Assembly: GCA_024707265.1 (NCBI GenBank)
Contig: JANQAB010000002.1
Coordinates: 392,188 to 456,187 of the forward strand
DNA from: Sporocytophaga sp.
GTDB taxonomy: Bacteria > Bacteroidota > Bacteroidia > Cytophagales > Cytophagaceae
Direction of reading: 5' to 3'
Length of the DNA stretch: 64,000 nt
Position numbers and translations under genes: made by a program. Below, one piece after another: positions 16,034-24,064 of this stretch (within the stretch, counting starts at the first letter, position 1; each line of letters begins with the position of its first letter). The notes beneath the pieces are model-generated. The model was given only the letters and a program-made list of their open reading frames with translations. It was not told the DNA's origin and searched no databases.

Positions 16034-16279
16034 ATGGATAGTCAATTTTACCATACTGGATCTTTGAGCCAGTTTATAAAGGGGAGAAGAAAAGCGTTAG
16101 GGCTTACGCAACAAGATCTGGCAGATAAAGCAGGGGTAGGATTGAGGTTTGTAAGGGAGTTGGAAGCCGATAAACCTTCCATGCAAATGGACAAGGTTAA
16201 CCAGGTACTTTTGCTATTTGGATATAAATTAGGTCCTGTACCTATGGATCGGGAAAGGTTGATCAATGAGAAGAGCTAA
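16034..16279 (+). CDS. hipB: HipB-like helix-turn-helix antitoxin / autorepressor
   Basis: The 81-residue protein consists of a Cro/C1-type helix-turn-helix: LSQFIKGRRKALGLTQQDLA, then DKAGVGLRFVRELEADKPSM, ending in a short dimerisation tail (LFGYKLGPVP). This fits the Y4mF/HipB antitoxin group. It overlaps the next gene by 14 bases and is preceded by four inverted-repeat operators, so it is probably the DNA-binding repressor of the three-gene locus. In known HipBST systems HipB binds DNA while the small HipS protein carries the neutralising activity. Confidence 0.88.
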   Translation: MDSQFYHTGSLSQFIKGRRKALGLTQQDLADKAGVGLRFVRELEADKPSMQMDKVNQVLLLFGYKLGPVPMDRERLINEKS

Positions 16280-16595
16280 AGTTTACATGCATGAAAAATG
16301 GGCAGGAACGCTCATCGAAGATGAGAGTGGTTACCACTTTCAATACAGGAAAGAATATTTGGACGATAGTAAAGCTGAGCCAATCAGTTTAACAATTCCT
16401 TTGCAGGAAGCTCCGTTCCAGGACAAGGTCTTGTTTCCATTTTTTGATGGTCTTATTCCTGAAGGCTGGTTGTTGGAAATTGCAGAGAAAAACTGGAAAC
16501 TGAATCCAAGGGACAGAATGGGGTTATTATTAACTACTTGTCATGATTGTATAGGAGCAGTAAGCATAATACCGTTTGAAGGGGAAGAGCAATGA
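16266..16595 (+). CDS. hipS: HipS-like protein (stand-alone HipA N-terminal subdomain)
   Basis: The 109-residue protein matches only the N-terminal subdomain 1 of HipA: KVYMHEKWAGTLIEDESG at the start, SLTIPLQ in the middle and LFPFFDGLIPEGWLLE, then DRMGLLLTT..DCIGAVSI at the end. In classical HipA this region is fused to the kinase; here it is a separate gene overlapping the kinase gene by 4 bases (ATGA). By analogy with E. coli O127 HipBST, the small protein is expected to be the antitoxin that holds HipT. Assignment is by domain content and gene order. Confidence 0.85.
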   Translation: MRRAKVYMHEKWAGTLIEDESGYHFQYRKEYLDDSKAEPISLTIPLQEAPFQDKVLFPFFDGLIPEGWLLEIAEKNWKLNPRDRMGLLLTTCHDCIGAVSIIPFEGEEQ

Positions 16596-17549
16596 GCATG
16601 AGAAGATGTTTATACTGTTACCAATCCTTAGAGGAGGGAGATAAATTCGAGTACCATGGTACTTGTAGTAAAAAGATATTTGGTAACGCAGAACCACCGG
16701 AACTGGAATATAGCAATGATCAGATGTTGCAGCTTGCTGAAAAAGTAGTTCGAAGTCAGGTAACAATTACAGGTGTACAGCCAAAGCTATCTTTAGGGAT
16801 AAAGAATATGACAGGAAATGATGTTGCACAAAAGCTTACGATCACTGGTGTTTGGGGAGAATATATATTAAAGCCTCCAACTATACATTACCCGCATCTG
16901 CCTGAATTGGAAGATGTAACAATGCATCTTGCAGAAATAGCCGGGATAAAAACAGTGCCGCATGCTTTGATAAGACTTGCATCTGGAGAGCTGTCATACA
17001 TAACGAAACGTATCGACAGAAAAGGAAAGCAAAAGTTTCACATGGAGGATATGTGCCAGGTTACAGAAAGGCTTACTGAAGCTAAATACCGTGGTTCATA
17101 CGAACAGATAGGAAAGGCAATTATGAAGTATTCATCTAATCCCGGATTGCATCTGATCATTTTTTTTGAGCAAGTGATTTTTTCTTTTCTTACAGGAAAC
17201 AATGATATGCATTTAAAAAACTTTTCGCTGTTTAAAGATCCAAAGTTAGGTTATAGCCTTAGTCTTGCATATGATATGGTAGCAGCTGCACTTGTTGTGG
17301 AAAATGACGATGAAGAACTGGCTCTAAATCTTAATGGCAAAAAAGAAAAAACTTAGGCGAAAAGACTTTGAGGCATCAGCAGAACTTTTTAAAATGGATA
17401 AGAAGGTTCTTGATAACATTTTCAAACGAATGAAGAAAGCTTTGCCTAAGTGGCATACGTTTATAGAAATAAGTTTTTTACCGGAGGAAATGAAGCAGGC
17501 TTATCATGAGATGTTGGATAAAAAGGCGGGGCAGATAGGAATGATGTAG
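16592..17549 (+). CDS. hipT: HipT-like serine/threonine kinase toxin, frame broken near its C-terminus
   Basis: The kinase core lacks the HipA N-terminal subdomain. It starts with a CxxC...HxxC motif (Cys6, Cys9, His22, Cys25) that may bind zinc. The Gly-rich loop reads VTITGVQPK (Thr58, Thr60). An ILKPP lysine, the catalytic GNNDMHLKNFS and the metal-binding AYDMV follow. The frame stops at 17356 but continues in another frame to 17549 (RRKDFEASAELFKMDKK). Removing one A from the A6 run after AATGGC near 17339 gives NGKKKKLRRKDF, about 318 residues in total. HipT of E. coli phosphorylates tryptophanyl-tRNA synthetase; the target here is unknown. Confidence 0.85.
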
Positions 17550-17600: not shown

Positions 17601-17662
17601 CCAATGGGACTCGAACCCACGACCCTCCCGACCTCAGGTCGGGATGATCTACCCAACAGAAC
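17601..17662 (-). pseudogene. tRNA-like remnant with palindromic anticodon arm
   Basis: Read on the minus strand it has a D-arm-like AGTTCTGTTGGGTAGATCA, an anticodon arm CCCGA-CCTGAGG-TCGGG, a variable GGGTC and a perfect T-arm (GTGGG-TTCGAGT-CCCAT). There are no matching acceptor strands and no U33, so it is not a working tRNA. T-arm and variable loop equal those of the tRNA-His at 22582-22656. The arm is a 17-base near-perfect palindrome. The upstream GIY-YIG frame ends inside it. Confidence 0.7.
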
Positions 17663-17957
17663 TTTTATGCTTATTGATGTATTCTTTAACCTTCACTGGA
17701 TTCTTGAAGTTCTTTAGCTTTTTCTTGGTAGCTAACGCCTCAGCCCTTGTTAGAAATGTGAAATGATACAGAAGTTTCCAAGGTCCTTTATTCCGTGTAA
17801 ATACAGAACCTCCATAGTTATGACGTTTTACTCTGGCTTCTAAATTATCTGTTTGTTCAATGTAAAGGATTCCTGAAGTCTCAGACTGTAAAACAGAATG
17901 CCATAAAAAAGATAGATAACCTTGTTCTCGAAGAAGGTGAAGTGACTGGCCATGCAC
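17649..17957 (-). pseudogene. GIY-YIG endonuclease gene, N-terminus replaced
   Basis: The reading frame encodes a small GIY-YIG nuclease domain: SETSGILYIEQTDNLEARVK, then RHNYGGSVFTRNKGPWKL and FLTRAEALATKKKLKNFKN. The second motif is YIE instead of YIG, and the first 20 residues up to the GIY strand do not match the sister copy at 22087-22233 (YYTYILESETSG). The 5' end instead overlaps, on the opposite strand, a fragment of another gene. The stop codon lies inside the tRNA-like remnant. It is probably a decayed copy of a nuclease gene associated with tRNA sequences. Confidence 0.7.
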
Positions 17958-18151
17958 ACAGGCTAAGCGGATTGATAGAAGTGCTGGAGGAAAATTTATC
18001 TGAAAGACAAATTCTGTTCAGATTAGAAAAGAATGCTGTACTTACTCACGAAGAACATGATCGTATGGTACTGGATAAGGGTATTTACCTTAAAGTATCA
18101 CAAGTAGAGTATGATCCTTTTTCAAATATGATACACTGGATAAGAGATTAG
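17906..18151 (+). pseudogene. 5'-truncated conserved small protein (VTGHAHRL...THEEHD family)
   Basis: The frame is open and reads KKIDNLVLEEGEVTGHAHRL, then VLTHEEHDRMVLDKGIYLKV and QVEYDPFSN up to a stop at 18151. I recognise this H-x-H and HEEH arrangement from small conserved bacterial proteins of unknown function. The expected N-terminal strand is missing; upstream DNA belongs to the opposite-strand GIY-YIG remnant. The formal start would be the GTG at 17942. It is most likely a gene end left after an insertion or deletion at about 17900. Confidence 0.55.
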
Positions 18152-18614
18152 GAAGAAAAATGACTTACTCTTTGTTCTTTTTTTATTTGAAGAGATGAAT
18201 CAGGGAATGGAAAAAAGGTTAGTATTGTCAGTGTTCACAGATAAATTTTAAGTTTTTCATAATTTAAAAAGTAAGTGTTTTATTGGATGATACACGGAGA
18301 ATGAGTTCAAAGTTTGACTGAAAATATTTTAAAATATTATAAAGTTTTTTTGCTCTTTTATATGGTTGCTTTATTAATGAAAAGAATTAATTGTTTTAAA
18401 AGGATTATATATTTTTAGGGGCATCCATAGAATTATATTTTTGGAATTTTTCTTTAATCTTGTGGCATTGTCTGTGAGATTATTATGGTTTAAGGAAATT
18501 TAATTTTCTTAGCAGTATAATTTTTTACTTTTTTTGTGTCAATTTATATTTTGTTTGGGAAAAATAGCTTTTAGTCGCTTATTATTGTATGTTTGACGAC
18601 ATAAAACATGTAAT
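18152..18614. other. Gene-free AT-rich spacer
   Basis: These 463 bases are strongly AT-rich with many stops in all frames. I see no tRNA, clear hairpin terminator or repeat. The stretch just before 18615 presumably holds the promoter of the T9SS-secreted protein, but no exact TTTG/TAnnTTTG pair stands out. Confidence 0.6.
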
Positions 18615-20207
18615 ATGAAAAAAGCTTATTTTTATTCTTTAATCACATTCTTAACTTTTATAGTTTCTTTGACAAATATAAAAGCTGCGTCAGTTAGTGG
18701 TTTCTCAATTAATTCTCCACTCATTAATGGAAAAGTTGCAATGACCACAGATGGAAATACAACAATTAATTTTACGGTTAATTTTGTTAGAACGACATCG
18801 GAATATCCTACATTTTTAGTCAAACTTGTATCTGACAACGGAAATTTCAAAAACAAGGATCTTACTTCTATTATACAAATTAATTCAACTGAATTTGGAA
18901 CCGGAACTACTCTTTCCAAAACTTATTCAAGAGATGTTGCTATCTCCAACACCTATTATCCTAATGCAACTGCTGTACTACTACAATATAGTATAAATGG
19001 TAATGATTGGGTATTTTCAACAAATGCATATCAAGTTCAGTTTTGTGAACCAGTTACAGTATCTCCTTCAGTTGTAATTTGCCCTGGAAGCTCGACGACT
19101 CTCACTGCAAGTGGTGCAGACTCTTATACATGGTCTCCCGCAGAAGGGTTAAATACCACAACAGGTGCTACAGTTGTAGCAACACCATCAGTTACTACTA
19201 TCTATAATGTTGTTGGCAATAAAACCAATGGTTGTAGTTCAACTAAATCCGATACTGTCATTCTTTGGCCATTTAATATTTCACCCGATGTTACAACGTG
19301 TTATGGATCTCCAGTCAAATTAGTAGCAAAAGGTCCGGGTGTGCCCGGCTTTGTAAGGACTACCTATAGTTGGTCTCCTTCCGATGGGTTAAATACAACC
19401 ACGAATGATACAGTTATAGCAAATCCAAGTGTGACAACCACCTATACAGTAACGATGAAGTTTCTCACCTGTACAATTACCAAATCAGTTACTGTAACAG
19501 TTGCAGGGGTTTGTGGTACTTCTATGGAATATCCAATTAATTTAGGTACAATTCGTCCTTGTGACATGTTATCATTAAGCGGCAATACCACTGGGTTTGG
19601 AAATAACTATGGAAGTGACAAAACAAATGGCCAGCCAAGTCCAGATGTTTTTTATAAATTTAAAGGCTCTGGTATTGGCTCTGGCAATTATAGTATTTCT
19701 ACTTGTTCTAGCAGCTATTCAGGTGCAGATTTTGATACTTACCTACATTTGCTTACAAGTTCAGGTCAGTGGATTATATCAAATAACGATGCTTGTGGAA
19801 GTAATACATCTGAGATAAATGTAAATTTGCCTGGAGCCTCTTTTTATATAGTAGTAGAAGGTAATAACAGCTCTTCTGGAAACTATAATTTATTGTTAAG
19901 TCGGGGAGGCTCGTGTTTAAGATCCGGAAGTGACTTAAGCGAGTCAGAATCATATAATATGGAAATAAAAACGCAACTTGTTCCAAATCCTGCTACAGCT
20001 GATGATTTTAGATTGGTTTTGGCAAATGGTCTTCAAAAGGCAGCCAATGTTGCTATATATGATTCTAAAGGAGGGTTAAAGAAATCGATTAAAAATTACG
20101 ATTATGACACACCTATAACTACTAATGATTTGGAGAACGGTATTTATTTCGTTACGATCACAGATGAATTTAATACTGAGACAAAAAAACTTGTAGTTAA
20201 TAAATAA
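18615..20207 (+). CDS. T9SS-secreted multidomain surface protein
   Basis: The 530-residue protein has a signal peptide (MKKAYFYSLITFLTFIVSL, cut near NIKA) and an N-terminal beta domain (about 25-140). Two PKD-like repeats follow, sharing YTWSPAEGLNTTTGATV and YSWSPSDGLNTTTNDTV (about 145-295). A PPC-like beta-sandwich comes next (about 300-430, with DVFYKFKG and FDTYLHLLTSSGQW). A C-terminal T9SS sorting domain starts at LVPNPATADDF and ends KKLVVNK. No enzyme active site is visible. It is exported through the outer membrane and probably surface-bound; an adhesive role is inferred from the domain set. Confidence 0.85.
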   Translation: MKKAYFYSLITFLTFIVSLTNIKAASVSGFSINSPLINGKVAMTTDGNTTINFTVNFVRTTSEYPTFLVKLVSDNGNFKNKDLTSIIQINSTEFGTGTTLSKTYSRDVAISNTYYPNATAVLLQYSINGNDWVFSTNAYQVQFCEPVTVSPSVVICPGSSTTLTASGADSYTWSPAEGLNTTTGATVVATPSVTTIYNVVGNKTNGCSSTKSDTVILWPFNISPDVTTCYGSPVKLVAKGPGVPGFVRTTYSWSPSDGLNTTTNDTVIANPSVTTTYTVTMKFLTCTITKSVTVTVAGVCGTSMEYPINLGTIRPCDMLSLSGNTTGFGNNYGSDKTNGQPSPDVFYKFKGSGIGSGNYSISTCSSSYSGADFDTYLHLLTSSGQWIISNNDACGSNTSEINVNLPGASFYIVVEGNNSSSGNYNLLLSRGGSCLRSGSDLSESESYNMEIKTQLVPNPATADDFRLVLANGLQKAANVAIYDSKGGLKKSIKNYDYDTPITTNDLENGIYFVTITDEFNTETKKLVVNK

Positions 20208-20230
20208 AGGTTAGTTTAATTTTAAAAATA

Positions 20231-20272
20231 AAAAAACGAATAGTTTGAACAATATCAGCTATTCGTTTTTTT
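20231..20272 (+). terminator. Rho-independent terminator
   Basis: AAAAAACGAATAG (20231-20243) pairs with CTATTCGTTTTTT (20259-20271) and is followed by further T. It ends the T9SS-protein gene. Confidence 0.9.
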
Positions 20273-20334
20273 ATTTTAAATCATTCCTCACTTATTCTTC
20301 AATCAATTTAAAGGGTGGAGCGAAATGAAAAAGT

Positions 20335-20370
20335 AAAAAAAGCTGCCCTTTTTGAAGGCAGCTTTTTTTA
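20335..20370 (-). terminator. Rho-independent terminator of the truncated lipocalin gene
   Basis: AGCTGCC (20341-20347) and GGCAGCT (20357-20363) form the stem, with a run of T on the minus strand made by the A run at 20335-20340. It lies 20 bases past the stop of the lipocalin remnant. Confidence 0.8.
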
Positions 20371-20389
20371 TTAAAGGATTTACTATAAA

Positions 20390-20665
20390 TTATTTTTGAG
20401 CAGTCATTACTGTTTGATAAATGAGTGGAGCAGTACCAATACTGAATTTGAACGTTGAGCCATCAAGTTGATCAATCTTAAATGTTTCGTCATCTATAAT
20501 AATTTGAGTATCATTGTTCGTGAATTCCCATGTTCCAGGATTATTTCCTCCGCATTCATCTGTATTTGAATCTGTATAAGTTTTATCAGTTTTAAATATT
20601 TGAAGAGATGATTTATCACAATCTTCTAATGGGACATTCTGACCTGCTAGCGATTGGCTAGTTAC
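20390..20665 (-). pseudogene. 3' end of a lipocalin-like gene, cut by an insertion sequence
   Basis: On the minus strand a frame from the IS boundary to the TAA at 20390-20392 encodes about 91 residues, including DKSSLQIFKTDKTYTDSNTD, then GTWEFTNNDTQIIID and FKFSIGTAPLIYQTVM. This pattern (cysteine pair, GTW.F, a closing beta strand) resembles the small lipocalin-like domains of Bacteroidota lipoproteins. An in-frame stop and the start of the IS terminal repeat at 20666 interrupt it, so the signal peptide and first half are gone. It kept its terminator. Confidence 0.7.
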
Positions 20666-20721
20666 GGATCAATCGGAAAACCTGGGGGGAAAGTTAAAAA
20701 ATCTTTATTTTGTACAAAGTT

Positions 20722-21090
20722 ATGCAGAGTGAAGATTATAATTTAGTTAGTTTGGTACTCCCTTCAGGTATCCTTGATTTCTTTTTAATAACCAAAGTTG
20801 CTCATACAGAAGAAGTACTGAATATTTATCTTGAAGAGAAAAACATAAAACCGGAAGAGTTTAAGACAAGCAAGCTCACCAGCAAGGGCTTTTTTGATGA
20901 AATAAAAGTTCAGGATTTTCCAATCAGAGGCAAAGATGTATTCCTTTATATCAGACGCAGGAGGTGGGAAGATGAGGAGGGATCGATCGTTTATCGGAAC
21001 TGGGAACATGTAGCCAAAGGAACGCGAATGACAAAGGAATTCGCGGCTTTTTTAAAAGTTATATCTCGATTCCAAACCGGTAAGCTGTAA
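20722..21090 (+). CDS. IS transposase N-region protein
   Basis: A 122-residue protein from the ATG at 20722 (MQSEDYNLVSLVLPSGILDF). It contains the GFFDEIKVQDFPIRGKDVFL segment before a charged WEDEEG region and ends SRFQTGKL. It matches in form the separate N-terminal frame of ISAon1-type elements. The longer start at 20710 (TTG) is less likely. The catalytic frame continues after it in the +1 frame, with no good start codon of its own. Confidence 0.75.
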   Translation: MQSEDYNLVSLVLPSGILDFFLITKVAHTEEVLNIYLEEKNIKPEEFKTSKLTSKGFFDEIKVQDFPIRGKDVFLYIRRRRWEDEEGSIVYRNWEHVAKGTRMTKEFAAFLKVISRFQTGKL

Positions 21091-22049
21091 AGCTCTGGGA
21101 GATTATTTTGGAGTTGATGGTAAACTTCTGGAAGAACAATACAGAGACCATCTTAGCAATTTTCATTGCTGGGATCAACTAGAACATGCCGAGCAATGGA
21201 TTCTTTATGAAGATAATCTTGGCCCATATTTAAGTATAGACGAAACAGCTCTTTCTCAGGGAGAGCTGTATACAGTTGTCACTAATAAAGAAGCCAGAGG
21301 CCAAAAGGGATGTCTGGTAGCAATGATCAAAGGCACCAATAGCCAGACAGTACGTGAAGTTCTGAGCAGGATACCAGATTTCAAAAGGCATAAAGTAAAA
21401 GAAGTAACTCTGGATATGGCAGCTTCAATGGAAAATATAGTCAAATATTCATTTCCTAAAGCCACTCTTGTTACAGATAGATTCCATGTCCAGAAGCTTG
21501 CATTTGATGCAGTACAGGAAATGAGGATCCAACTTCGCTGGGAAGCGATAGAACAAGAGAATAAAGAGTTTGAGCTCAGTAAAGAATTAGGGAAAAAGTT
21601 TATTCCGGATATTTATGAAAATGGAGATTCATTGAAACAATTGTTGGCCCGTAGCAGGTACTTGCTATTTAAAGCAAAATCAAAATGGACCCCGTCACAA
21701 ATACACAGAGGTGAAATACTTTTCAGACTCTATCCATCCCTGGAAACTGCGTATAATCTATCAATACAGTTAGGCAATATATTTCAGACAACAAAAGATA
21801 AAAAGAGTAGCCTTCACTAAGCTGGCTCAATGGTATGATAAGGTAGATAAAGCAGGATTCAAATCATTTGCCACCGTGAGGAGATCAATTGAAGCTCATT
21901 ATCCCACTATTTTAAACTTCTTTGATAACCGCAGTACCAATGCTTCTGCTGAATCTTTTAATGCAAAAATCAAAGCCTTCCGATCTGCTTTCAGAGGAGT
22001 AAGAAATGTAACTTTCTTTTTATTCAGACTTGCAAATATCTATGCTTGA
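21056..22049 (+). CDS. IS transposase catalytic region (DDE, ISL3-like), frame broken
   Basis: The frame opens at 21056, runs through ALGDYFGVDGKLLEEQYRDH, then LSIDETALSQGELYTVVTNK and VTLDMAASMENIVKYSFP and LVTDRFHVQKLAFDAV. It is interrupted near 21811 and resumes as RVAFTKLAQWYDK to FFDNRSTNASAESFNAKIKA, ending at the TGA at 22047-22049. The DE and DM/DRFH segments look like the DDE acidic residues, and the closing N..A E.FNAKIK motif is typical of ISL3-type enzymes. Removing one A from the A5 run near 21811 restores the frame. Expression from the upstream frame would need a +1 shift. Confidence 0.75.
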
Positions 22050-22086
22050 AAAAATTATATCGCTCCCCAGAAATTCCGATTGATCC

Positions 22087-22233
22087 GAGAATCTTCCAAG
22101 GTCCTTTGTTCCTAGTATATAAGGATCCTCCATTGTTATGGCGGTTCAGTCGTGCCTGTAAGTTATCGGTTTGGCCAATGTAAAGTTTTCCGGAAGTCTC
22201 AGACTCAAGGATGTAGGTGTAGTAAATTTTCAT
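22087..22233 (-). pseudogene. GIY-YIG endonuclease gene, 3' half removed by the IS
   Basis: From the ATG at 22233 the frame encodes MKIYYTYILESETSGKLYIG, then QTDNLQARLNRHNNGG and SLYTRNKGPWKILGS, i.e. both conserved motifs (YTYIL for GIY, and YIG). It then runs into the IS at 22086. The missing C-terminal half is visible in the sister copy at 17649. The gene starts downstream of tRNA-His-derived repeats on the same strand. The first half looks intact and recent, unlike the sister copy with YIE. Confidence 0.75.
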
Positions 22234-22295
22234 AGCTGGATAAAAAATAATCTAAAATAAAAAAAGCGACTTAATTTAGTCGCTTTACTTTTAAG

Positions 22296-22370
22296 GGTGG
22301 CCAATGGGACTCGAACCCACGACCCTCCCGACCAAGGTCGGGATGATCTAACCATCTGAACTATTATAGT
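22296..22370 (-). pseudogene. tRNA-His-derived pseudo-tRNA, copy 1
   Basis: T-arm (GTGGG-TTCGAGT-CCCAT) and 3' acceptor strand (TGGCCAC) equal those of tRNA-His. The anticodon arm is the palindrome CCCGACC-TT-GGTCGGG with no readable anticodon. The 5' acceptor region is replaced by GAACTATAATAGTTC, another palindrome, so no acceptor stem can form. Confidence 0.75.
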
Positions 22371-22438
22371 TCGAATAGAGGATCATAAAGCGACTGAAAT
22401 AAAAAAAGCGACTTAAATTTAGTCGCTTTACTTTTAAG

Positions 22439-22513
22439 GGTGGCCAATGGGACTCGAACCCACGACCCTCCCGACCAAGGTCGGGATGATCTAACCATCT
22501 GAACTATTATAGT
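22439..22513 (-). pseudogene. tRNA-His-derived pseudo-tRNA, copy 2
   Basis: Same structure as copy 1, shifted by 143 bases. Conserved T-arm and 3' acceptor strand, palindromic CCCGACC-TT-GGTCGGG in place of the anticodon arm, palindromic GAACTATAATAGTTC in place of the 5' acceptor strand. Confidence 0.75.
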
Positions 22514-22581
22514 TCGAATAGAGGATCATAAAGCGACTGAAATAAAAAAAGCGACTTAAATTTAGTCGCTTTACTTTTAAG

Positions 22582-22656
22582 GGTGGCCAATGGGACTCGA
22601 ACCCACGACCCTCAGAACCACAATCTGATGTTCTAACCAGCTGAACTATGGCCACC
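22582..22656 (-). tRNA. tRNA-His (GTG)
   Basis: On the minus strand the cloverleaf is complete. The acceptor stem is GTGGCCA/TGGCCAC with the extra G at -1 expected for tRNA-His, and the D-arm is GTTC-AGCTGGTTA-GAAC. The anticodon stem TCAGA/TCTGA holds loop TTGTGGT (anticodon GTG), and the T-arm is GTGGG-TTCGAGT-CCCAT. CCA is not encoded. Two defective tandem copies follow downstream on the same strand. Confidence 0.95.
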
Positions 22657-22721: not shown

Positions 22722-24064
22722 TTATATTCTGTTGAAAGAAAGTCGTTTACCATAATTGCTTTCGTCAAATTTCCCTTCTTCATACACTAAATTACCACTA
22801 ACAAGGGTATGGGTTACTTTAGAATGGAAATTTACTCCCTCGAAAGGAGACCAACCACATTGATATAAAATGTTGTTTTTAGCTACTTCATATGAAGCTT
22901 CCAGATCCACTAAAACAAGATCAGCCCAATAACCTTCTCTGATATATCCTCTCTTTTCTATCTGGAAACAAATCGCAGGGTTGTGACACATCTTTTCAAC
23001 TACTTTCTCCAAACTGATTTTTCCTTGTTTGTAAAACTCGAGCATGGCATTAAGGCTATGCTGAACCAATGGTCCGCCTGAAGGAGCTTTCCAATAGTTC
23101 TGACTCTTTTCCTCTATAGTATGAGGAGCGTGGTCCGTAGCTATAATGTCAAGATGATCATCAAGCATGGCTTTAAAAAGCGCTTCTTTATGTCTTTTTT
23201 TCCTTTACTGCAGGGTTCCACTTTATCCTGGTTCCAAGTCTGTCATAATCGCTGCTGTCAAACCACAAATGATGTACGCAAACTTCAGCAGTAATCCTTT
23301 TTTTCACTTAAGGGCTTTGAATTATCAAAAAGGCTGATCTCTTCTTCCGTAGATATATGAAGGATATGCAGCCTTGAGTTAAATTTTTTTGCCAAAGCTA
23401 CAGCCATAGAAGAAGATTTGTAGCAGGCTTCTTCATTTCGTATAATAGGATGGATCGAAGCAGAAGGATTTTCTCCATATTTTTCCTTTGCCAATGCAGT
23501 GTTTCTCTGAATCGTTTGTTCATCTTCACAATGCGTTGCAATGAGCATTCCGGCGTTTTTGAATATTTCTTCAAGCGTCTTTTCATTGTCAACCAACATG
23601 TTACCTGTAGAAGAACCCATGAATACTTTTAACCCACAGACATTTTGAGGATCCGTTTTCAATGCTTCCTGTAAGTTGTCATTTGAAACGCCCATGAAAA
23701 AAGAATAATTGGCTAAGGATGTTTGCGCAGCCCTGGCATATTTTTCTGCTAACAGCTCCTGAGTCAGTGTATTAGGAACTGTATTCGGCATTTCCATGAA
23801 AGAGGTTATGCCTCCGGCAACAGCTGCTTTAGCTTCAGAATAAATAGTTGCTTTATGTGTTAAACCTGGTTCTCTGAAGTGTACCTGGTCATCTATAACG
23901 CCTGGAATCAGATACTTTCCTTTCGCATCAATTATTTTATCGGCCGGTTTGGAAGAGAGGTTCTGACCAATTTCCGCAATAAATCCGTTTTCTATAAAAA
24001 TATCACCTGAAGAGATCCGCCCTTCATTTACTATATTTGCATTAAGGATAAGTATTTTTTTCAT
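22722..24064 (-). CDS. pyrC: Dihydroorotase (class I type), frame broken twice
   Basis: The enzyme closes carbamoyl-aspartate to dihydroorotate in pyrimidine synthesis. The N-terminal part (from [15 protein letters not shown]) includes [15 protein letters not shown] and THCEDEQ, and the C-terminal part includes IIATDHAPH with the metal-site Asp and [10 protein letters not shown]. Between them the frame is lost twice. Removing one T from each T7 run (near 23195-23201 and 23288-23294) joins [15 protein letters not shown] and [19 protein letters not shown]. The product is then about 445 residues, normal for the family. The usual HxH metal motif reads QVH, which I recall as usual for the Bacteroidota form. 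Confidence 0.88.

Follow-up and report, generated by a model that had tools for sequence, protein, structure and literature searches.

Short GIY-YIG nuclease genes recur beside tRNA genes throughout the Bacteroidota, each accompanied by a duplicated half of the neighbouring tRNA gene. We think that gene and half-tRNA together probably make up a minimal, isotype-specific and homing-like selfish element, one that preserves the tRNA it enters by duplicating one half of it. The analysis followed up an initial annotation of a 64,000-nucleotide stretch of a Sporocytophaga genome of 6.76 Mb (contig JANQAB010000002.1, positions 392,188 to 456,187; hereafter the window). Two GIY-YIG genes tied to tRNA-like sequences had been pointed out there, and combining them had suggested an ancestral unit of tRNA, GIY-YIG gene and tRNA-like 3′ part. 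Exactly this unit was found intact in a second genome of the same genus, G142. The annotation had further proposed an element that uses a tRNA as its target and regenerates it. As a description of the anatomy this holds well; that the nuclease drives the movement is our own inference, considered below.

Two layouts at tRNA genes across the Bacteroidota

A protein search at the level of the order recovered relatives of the nuclease in 44 of 241 genomes, and a profile search of a phylum-wide sample recovered them in 246 of 395. For the survey of genomic context, 132 distinct loci were examined with their flanks taken regardless of tRNA proximity. The genomes were sampled at one per species and several are drafts, and exact junctions are blurred by decay. 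A tRNA gene on the same strand lay within 70 bp of the open reading frame (ORF) hit at 97 loci, within 200 bp at 114 and within 500 bp at 119. For a random position, the expected frequency of same-strand proximity at 200 bp, calculated from the 37–45 tRNA genes per genome, is approximately 0.4%, which rules out chance. The enrichment near tRNA genes that the initial annotation had suggested measuring is thus very strong. Most of the 12 loci without a same-strand tRNA have the ORF within approximately 520 bp of an end of the fetched stretch, and at one locus of this kind (L036) a tRNA lies 186 bp away on the opposite strand. Sixteen tRNA isotypes are represented among the survey loci.

The unit is compact, consisting of one ORF of approximately 80–90 codons and half a tRNA gene in approximately 300–380 bp, and it occurs in two mirror-image layouts. 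In the first (U; 96 loci) the whole tRNA with a terminator lies upstream of the ORF, which is followed by a displaced 3′ part of the tRNA; in the second (D; 24 loci) a 5′ part of the tRNA precedes the ORF and the whole tRNA lies downstream. The duplicated tRNA half was detected across the ORF at 90 of the 96 U loci (the 3′ part, usually with the terminator) and at 23 of the 24 D loci (the 5′ part), and at 14 of the D loci the stop codon of the ORF falls inside the intact tRNA gene. Both layouts leave the host one intact tRNA gene. In complete units (L010, L014, L031 and L066) the GIY-YIG gene is the only ORF. At 36 of the 132 loci there are at least two copies of the ORF, and up to five, at regular spacing (for example L070, L147 and L135), the pattern expected from recombination between direct repeats.

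A D-type unit was also identified at tRNA-Met(CAT) on a contig of an Omnitrophota metagenome-assembled genome (L247, 1250–1830), with a palindrome-bearing 5′ fragment and an ORF reading into the intact tRNA. This was the only match in a single-protein search with the G142 ORF, which samples the breadth outside Bacteroidota thinly, and it suggests that the element is probably not confined to that phylum.

Occupied, empty and scarred sites

Insertion is seen most clearly at the tRNA-His gene next to pyrC (dihydroorotase), which we compared in four genomes of the genus, including that of the window. In G142 (L010/L152) the order is pyrC, tRNA-His, a terminator (T1), three units of tRNA remnant and T1, and an 88-codon ORF that is intact; past it come a tRNA-His 3′ remnant, a second terminator (T2) unlike T1, and a gene on the opposite strand. 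The site is empty in G154 (L151), where pyrC and tRNA-His are followed by T2 and the same downstream gene. G103 (L153) carries a scar: tRNA-His, T1, a short stub ending in CCATTGGCCAC, which corresponds to the extreme 3′ end of the tRNA, and T2. A T2-like terminator at an empty pyrC–tRNA-His site in a sister genus (L174) suggests that the site was originally empty; on the simplest reading of these alleles, T1 would have come with the element and T2 would have been displaced to its right end. Across the family, 11 of the 14 sampled pyrC–tRNA-His loci are empty, two are occupied and one is scarred. In a genome of a different family (G064, L018), pyrC, tRNA-His and a GIY-YIG ORF occur in the same order with no detectable tRNA remnant, which could be an independent insertion or an old relic.

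Variable occupancy was also observed for the D layout, at the tRNA-Arg(TCG) gene next to yqeY in another family. Of 30 loci, 17 are empty, four are occupied (L217, L227, L230 and L237) and nine are uninformative. In three of the occupied loci (L217, L227 and L230), tRNA positions 1 to approximately 21 are followed by a palindrome, positions approximately 22–35 ending in the anticodon loop, the ORF and the whole tRNA; L237 is an array built on the same plan with an earlier junction. The intact tRNA is identical in occupied and empty alleles. These patterns, obtained by comparing related species where the initial annotation had proposed comparing strains, show insertion at both sites, and the genes are neither scattered irrespective of tRNAs nor held at one fixed, invariant place.

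In the window, the tRNA-His locus is in decay. All features of this locus lie on the minus strand unless stated otherwise, and along that strand the 3′ end of pyrC is followed by tRNA-His, T1, two tandem 143-bp units of tRNA-His remnant and T1, and a first nuclease ORF (ORF1). The empty-site comparison is anchored on the left by the 3′ part of pyrC (22722–23168), a conserved flank. The intact tRNA-His (GTG; 22655–22581), which is the whole target gene, was identified by ARAGORN and Rfam (RF00005, 66.4 bits) and keeps its synteny with pyrC across the family. Behind it lies T1 (22544–22572), identified from its sequence; the empty allele lacks T1 and has T2. The first ORF-less unit contains remnant A (22438–22507), with the palindrome TCCCGACCTTGGTCGGGA (22469–22486) in place of the anticodon arm, and a second copy of T1 (22401–22429). 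The next contains remnant B (22295–22364), with the same palindrome at 22326–22343, and a third copy of T1 (22259–22286) ahead of ORF1. Two or three such ORF-less units separate the ORF from the intact tRNA (22258–22580 in the window; also L152) and are possibly non-autonomous derivatives.

ORF1 (22088–22233; PF01541, E=6.5e-12) retains the first approximately 49 residues of the nuclease and is cut off at 22087 by an insertion sequence (IS) of the ISL3 family (20666–22086, plus strand), recognized by its inverted repeat and a frameshifted transposase (PF01610, E=4.5e-27). This is the gene that had been placed at 22087–22233, downstream of tRNA-His-derived copies, and it does follow the two remnant units. 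Approximately 4.1 kb away, a second copy (ORF2, 17649–17885, in an open frame at 17957–17649; PF01541, E=4.7e-06) has lost its 5′ end, and its YIG motif has become YIE. Its TAG stop codon (17651–17649) is supplied by the D-loop of a tRNA-His 3′ remnant, in agreement with the annotated gene at 17649–17957 that was said to end inside a tRNA-like remnant. This remnant C (17663–17601) extends from the D-arm to the T-arm and the start of the acceptor, whose end is lost, and bears the palindrome TCCCGACCTGAGGTCGGGA (17626–17644). The window's tRNA-His remnants keep the D-arm side and the tRNA 3′ end, with a perfect palindrome (TCCCGACC..GGTCGGGA) replacing the anticodon arm. The tRNA-His 3′-end sequence GGTCGTGGGTTCGAGTCCCNNTGG occurs four times in the genome, always at this locus.

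ORF1 and ORF2 are two separate copies of the element, both broken. An overlap of 118 bp at 79% identity rules out their being halves of one gene split by the insertion, and their nucleotide identities to the intact G142 ORF are 96% and 80%, respectively. The 8-bp flanks of the IS differ from each other, so the region was probably rearranged after the IS inserted. The window array has been inactivated by the IS and, probably, by rearrangement, and what it holds are decaying copies. Elsewhere in this genome, tRNA-Val remnants with the same type of palindrome and no ORF are present at C7:107700–108900 (L209) and C7:131200–131900 (L210). The L209 array abuts one end of what is apparently the same ISL3 element, which, with the IS in the window array, suggests recurrent IS-linked rearrangement at such arrays.

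Two neighbouring loci in the window also appear disrupted. The pyrC gene (22722–24064) reads as a pair of ORFs, of 148 and 259 amino acids, that lie in different frames, through a frameshift or a sequencing error, while three genomes of the genus have a single frame of approximately 450 codons. A HipA-like operon adjoining ORF2 (16034–17549; helix-turn-helix, Couple_hipA and HipA pieces) is apparently broken by frameshifts.

Nuclease lineages, palindromes and competing explanations

A nuclease tree was built from 64–80 alignment columns, with the C-terminal columns excluded, and has many weak forks. Mapped onto it, tRNA isotype required 36 changes, against a mean of 87 (minimum 80) for shuffled labels, and host family required 70 against a mean of 89. 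In 72 of 120 cases, where 10 were expected, a nuclease shared its isotype with its closest relative from another host family. Judged by this tree, the nuclease lineages follow the tRNA isotype and not the host family, which shows target-specific spread. Between loci with usable divergence, the ratio of non-synonymous to synonymous substitution rates was 0.16–0.6, and copies within arrays differed at 268 synonymous versus 201 non-synonymous positions; by these measures the ORF has evolved under purifying selection. The catalytic residues Y7, Y18, G20, H32, E64 and K68 are invariant and R28 nearly so. All 20 aligned members score above the curated cut-off for PF01541, the other Pfam match being a weak overlap with T5orf172, and the TIGR01453 score is far under its cut-off. 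The closest solved relatives by profile search are the UPF0213 proteins 1zg2 (E=6.8e-17) and 1ywl (E=1.2e-14), followed by SLX1 (E=1.3e-08). Pfam found no separate C-terminal DNA-binding domain in these ORFs of 80–90 amino acids. As a single-domain, UPF0213/SLX1-like enzyme, the nuclease is not classed with the I-TevI and Seg enzymes.

Purifying selection, together with the tandem arrays, would also fit a domesticated amplifier of tRNA dosage, whose cuts drive a segmental amplification that raises tRNA copy number when this is useful, as SegB does in phage T6, and which leaves the remnants as by-products. The geometry is similar, as amplification of the segB–tRNA-Tyr segment by SegB involves the 5′ region of the tRNA recombining with the 3′ region of segB (PMC13096335). 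However, the arrays chiefly multiply the ORF and a palindrome-disabled half-tRNA rather than functional tRNAs, even if some loci (L020 and L027) do hold several intact ones, and presence of the element is patchy. We regard a dosage function as unlikely.

It also seems quite unlikely that the nuclease is a passive hitch-hiker with no role in movement. On this account a tRNA gene was duplicated in tandem, one copy was overrun by a nuclease ORF with an unrelated job, and the arrays arose by unequal crossing-over. Direct repeats are enough by themselves for both expansion and deletion, the small GIY-YIG relatives (UPF0213) are encoded by ordinary chromosomal genes, and no cleavage was seen. Yet hitch-hiking would not lead one to expect isotype-specific nuclease lineages common to several host families, nor dozens of genomes sharing the same pair of layouts. 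In addition, the terminator of the G142 element differs from that of the site itself, and none of the remaining GIY-YIG genes in the window's genome lies near a tRNA.

The displaced tRNA half is usually altered by a GC-rich perfect palindrome, present in 70 of 93 U remnants and 18 of 28 D fragments, compared with five of 93 and five of 28 of the corresponding intact tRNAs; about a quarter of the U and a third of the D remnants have none. The palindrome varies in sequence, TCCCG being the commonest start, and its location varies with the position of the junction. It lies in the anticodon arm in 41 of 59 U remnants beginning in the D-arm, in the variable/T region in all 13 U remnants beginning at or past the anticodon, and in the D-arm in 13 of 18 D fragments. 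At U loci, the median distance from the junction to the centre of the palindrome is 24 nt. Palindromes of the form TCCCGA(N1-10)TCGGGA were also counted genome-wide against a reversed-pattern control; they are strongly enriched in some genomes (236 versus 1 in G002, and 222 versus 2 in another case) and absent from others. Across the order, dispersed copies occur for example in G002, G110, G091 and G237. They are abundant also in certain genomes where elements are sparse or missing, which indicates that the elements are not their sole source; the idea that the TCCCGA palindromes are products of these elements is not supported as such.

Palindromes of varied sequence at fixed arm positions, similar ones scattered through many genomes, and structure-specific SLX1-like relatives of the enzyme could be taken to mean palindrome-driven transposition. 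The hairpin would then be a recognized end, as in repetitive extragenic palindromes and their RAYT transposases (REP/RAYT) or in IS200/IS605, with the GIY-YIG enzyme as the processing nuclease. This appears very doubtful: palindromes are plentiful outside the elements, including where elements are rare or lacking, a substantial minority of the remnants have none, and neither a second end nor a target duplication was identified. The only ORF of the unit encodes the GIY-YIG protein and not the Y1 (HUH) transposase that defines REP/RAYT and IS200/IS605 systems. Finally, it is scarcely plausible that the units are reduced integrative mobilizable or conjugative elements (IME/ICE) or phage remains that lost their integrase and kept the GIY-YIG gene as surviving cargo, for although the U layout resembles attL/attR repeats of tRNA 3′ ends with a restored tRNA, the units of approximately 300 bp (L010, L014, L031 and L066) contain no integrase, duplication of a 5′ half in the D layout is atypical, and no larger parent element was found in plasmids or phages.

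A probable homing-like mechanism and its relation to known systems

We therefore return to the homing-like element as the probable explanation. The nuclease would cut an unoccupied copy of its own tRNA gene, and repair from an element-bearing donor would copy in the ORF and half-tRNA and so rebuild the tRNA. Once in place, the element could be lost, leaving scars such as that in G103, or its array enlarged, through further cuts or through unequal recombination of the direct repeats; continued low-level cutting may be a further source of arrays. In occupied alleles the displaced half is altered by the palindrome and the intact tRNA is unchanged; the palindrome probably marks, and destroys, the nuclease site in the displaced half.

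Several observations weigh against this explanation. Neither cleavage nor transfer was seen; what the comparisons show are the insertion patterns and the target-specific spread, and cleavage, homing and nuclease-driven movement are our inference. Because the intact tRNA is the same in occupied and empty alleles, the enzyme should cut its own host copy, and the immunity of a homing allele is not evident. The single domain and the UPF0213/SLX1 relatives make specificity for a long site less than obvious. No tblastn match to the nuclease family was obtained in plasmids, and phages gave one weak tblastn match, with three partial relatives and none, respectively, in two scans of viral contigs. The survey loci are best-scoring hits, and in a shallow tree of 64 columns single forks are not trustworthy.

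Homing-like nuclease elements are a known kind, and there is a fair chance that the present element is a class of its own. A full-text literature search, with bioRxiv and most subscription journals outside its scope, returned no published description of such elements. More tentatively, they could represent a previously unrecognized class of chromosomal mobile element, found in Bacteroidota and probably at least one other phylum, dedicated to single isotypes and duplicating either the 3′ or the 5′ half, in which the arm-replacing palindrome is an integral part that a single-domain and possibly structure-specific nuclease uses either as its cut mark or as a processing signal. If so, tRNA genes would be parasitized much as they are by introns, but with no splicing involved. 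Few genomic sequences are as strongly conserved as tRNA genes, and here these genes would be exploited across a phylum by a gene of approximately 85 codons and half a tRNA. Such elements would account for many small GIY-YIG genes and tRNA pseudogene arrays in Bacteroidota, and would offer a natural set of nucleases of 80–90 amino acids, each possibly preferring a different tRNA gene. Two questions then become directly testable: by what means a GIY-YIG domain this small locates its site, and how an element that homes can coexist with its own target.

Among known proteins, the UPF0213/YhbQ-like minimal GIY-YIG proteins and SLX1 resemble the nuclease as its nearest solved relatives by profile. 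We know of no UPF0213 genes that are linked to tRNA genes or arrayed, and SLX1, a nuclease of eukaryotic DNA repair, carries an additional domain. Integrative elements with tyrosine integrases also enter tRNA genes and make them whole again with a tRNA part that they bring along; the Bacteroidota element differs in having no integrase, in being far smaller and in using both 3′-half and 5′-half layouts. Group I introns with homing endonucleases likewise interrupt tRNA genes (PMC3984707), and some of the junctions described here fall in the anticodon loop, but such introns keep the tRNA by splicing, whereas this element keeps it by duplicating a half. A group I intron is ruled out in the window, where tRNA is the only Rfam match. 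The cuts made by I-TevI lie 23 and 25 nt away from the site of its insertion (PMC2988022), a distance comparable with the spacing of approximately 24 nt between junction and palindrome, although the parallel is suggestive only.

The closest functional analogue is SegB of the T-even phages, a homing endonuclease of the GIY-YIG type that is freestanding and lies at tRNA genes (Brok-Volchanskaya 2008, as cited in PMC13096335; PMC2988022). Both are freestanding GIY-YIG enzymes encoded among tRNA genes of many isotypes, and both are associated with segmental amplification involving the tRNA 5′ region and the nuclease 3′ region. SegB is a phage protein encoded between tRNA genes and is reported to have no preference among isotypes, whereas the Bacteroidota gene is chromosomal, encodes a single domain, lies inside a tRNA gene with a duplicated half and belongs to isotype-specific lineages.

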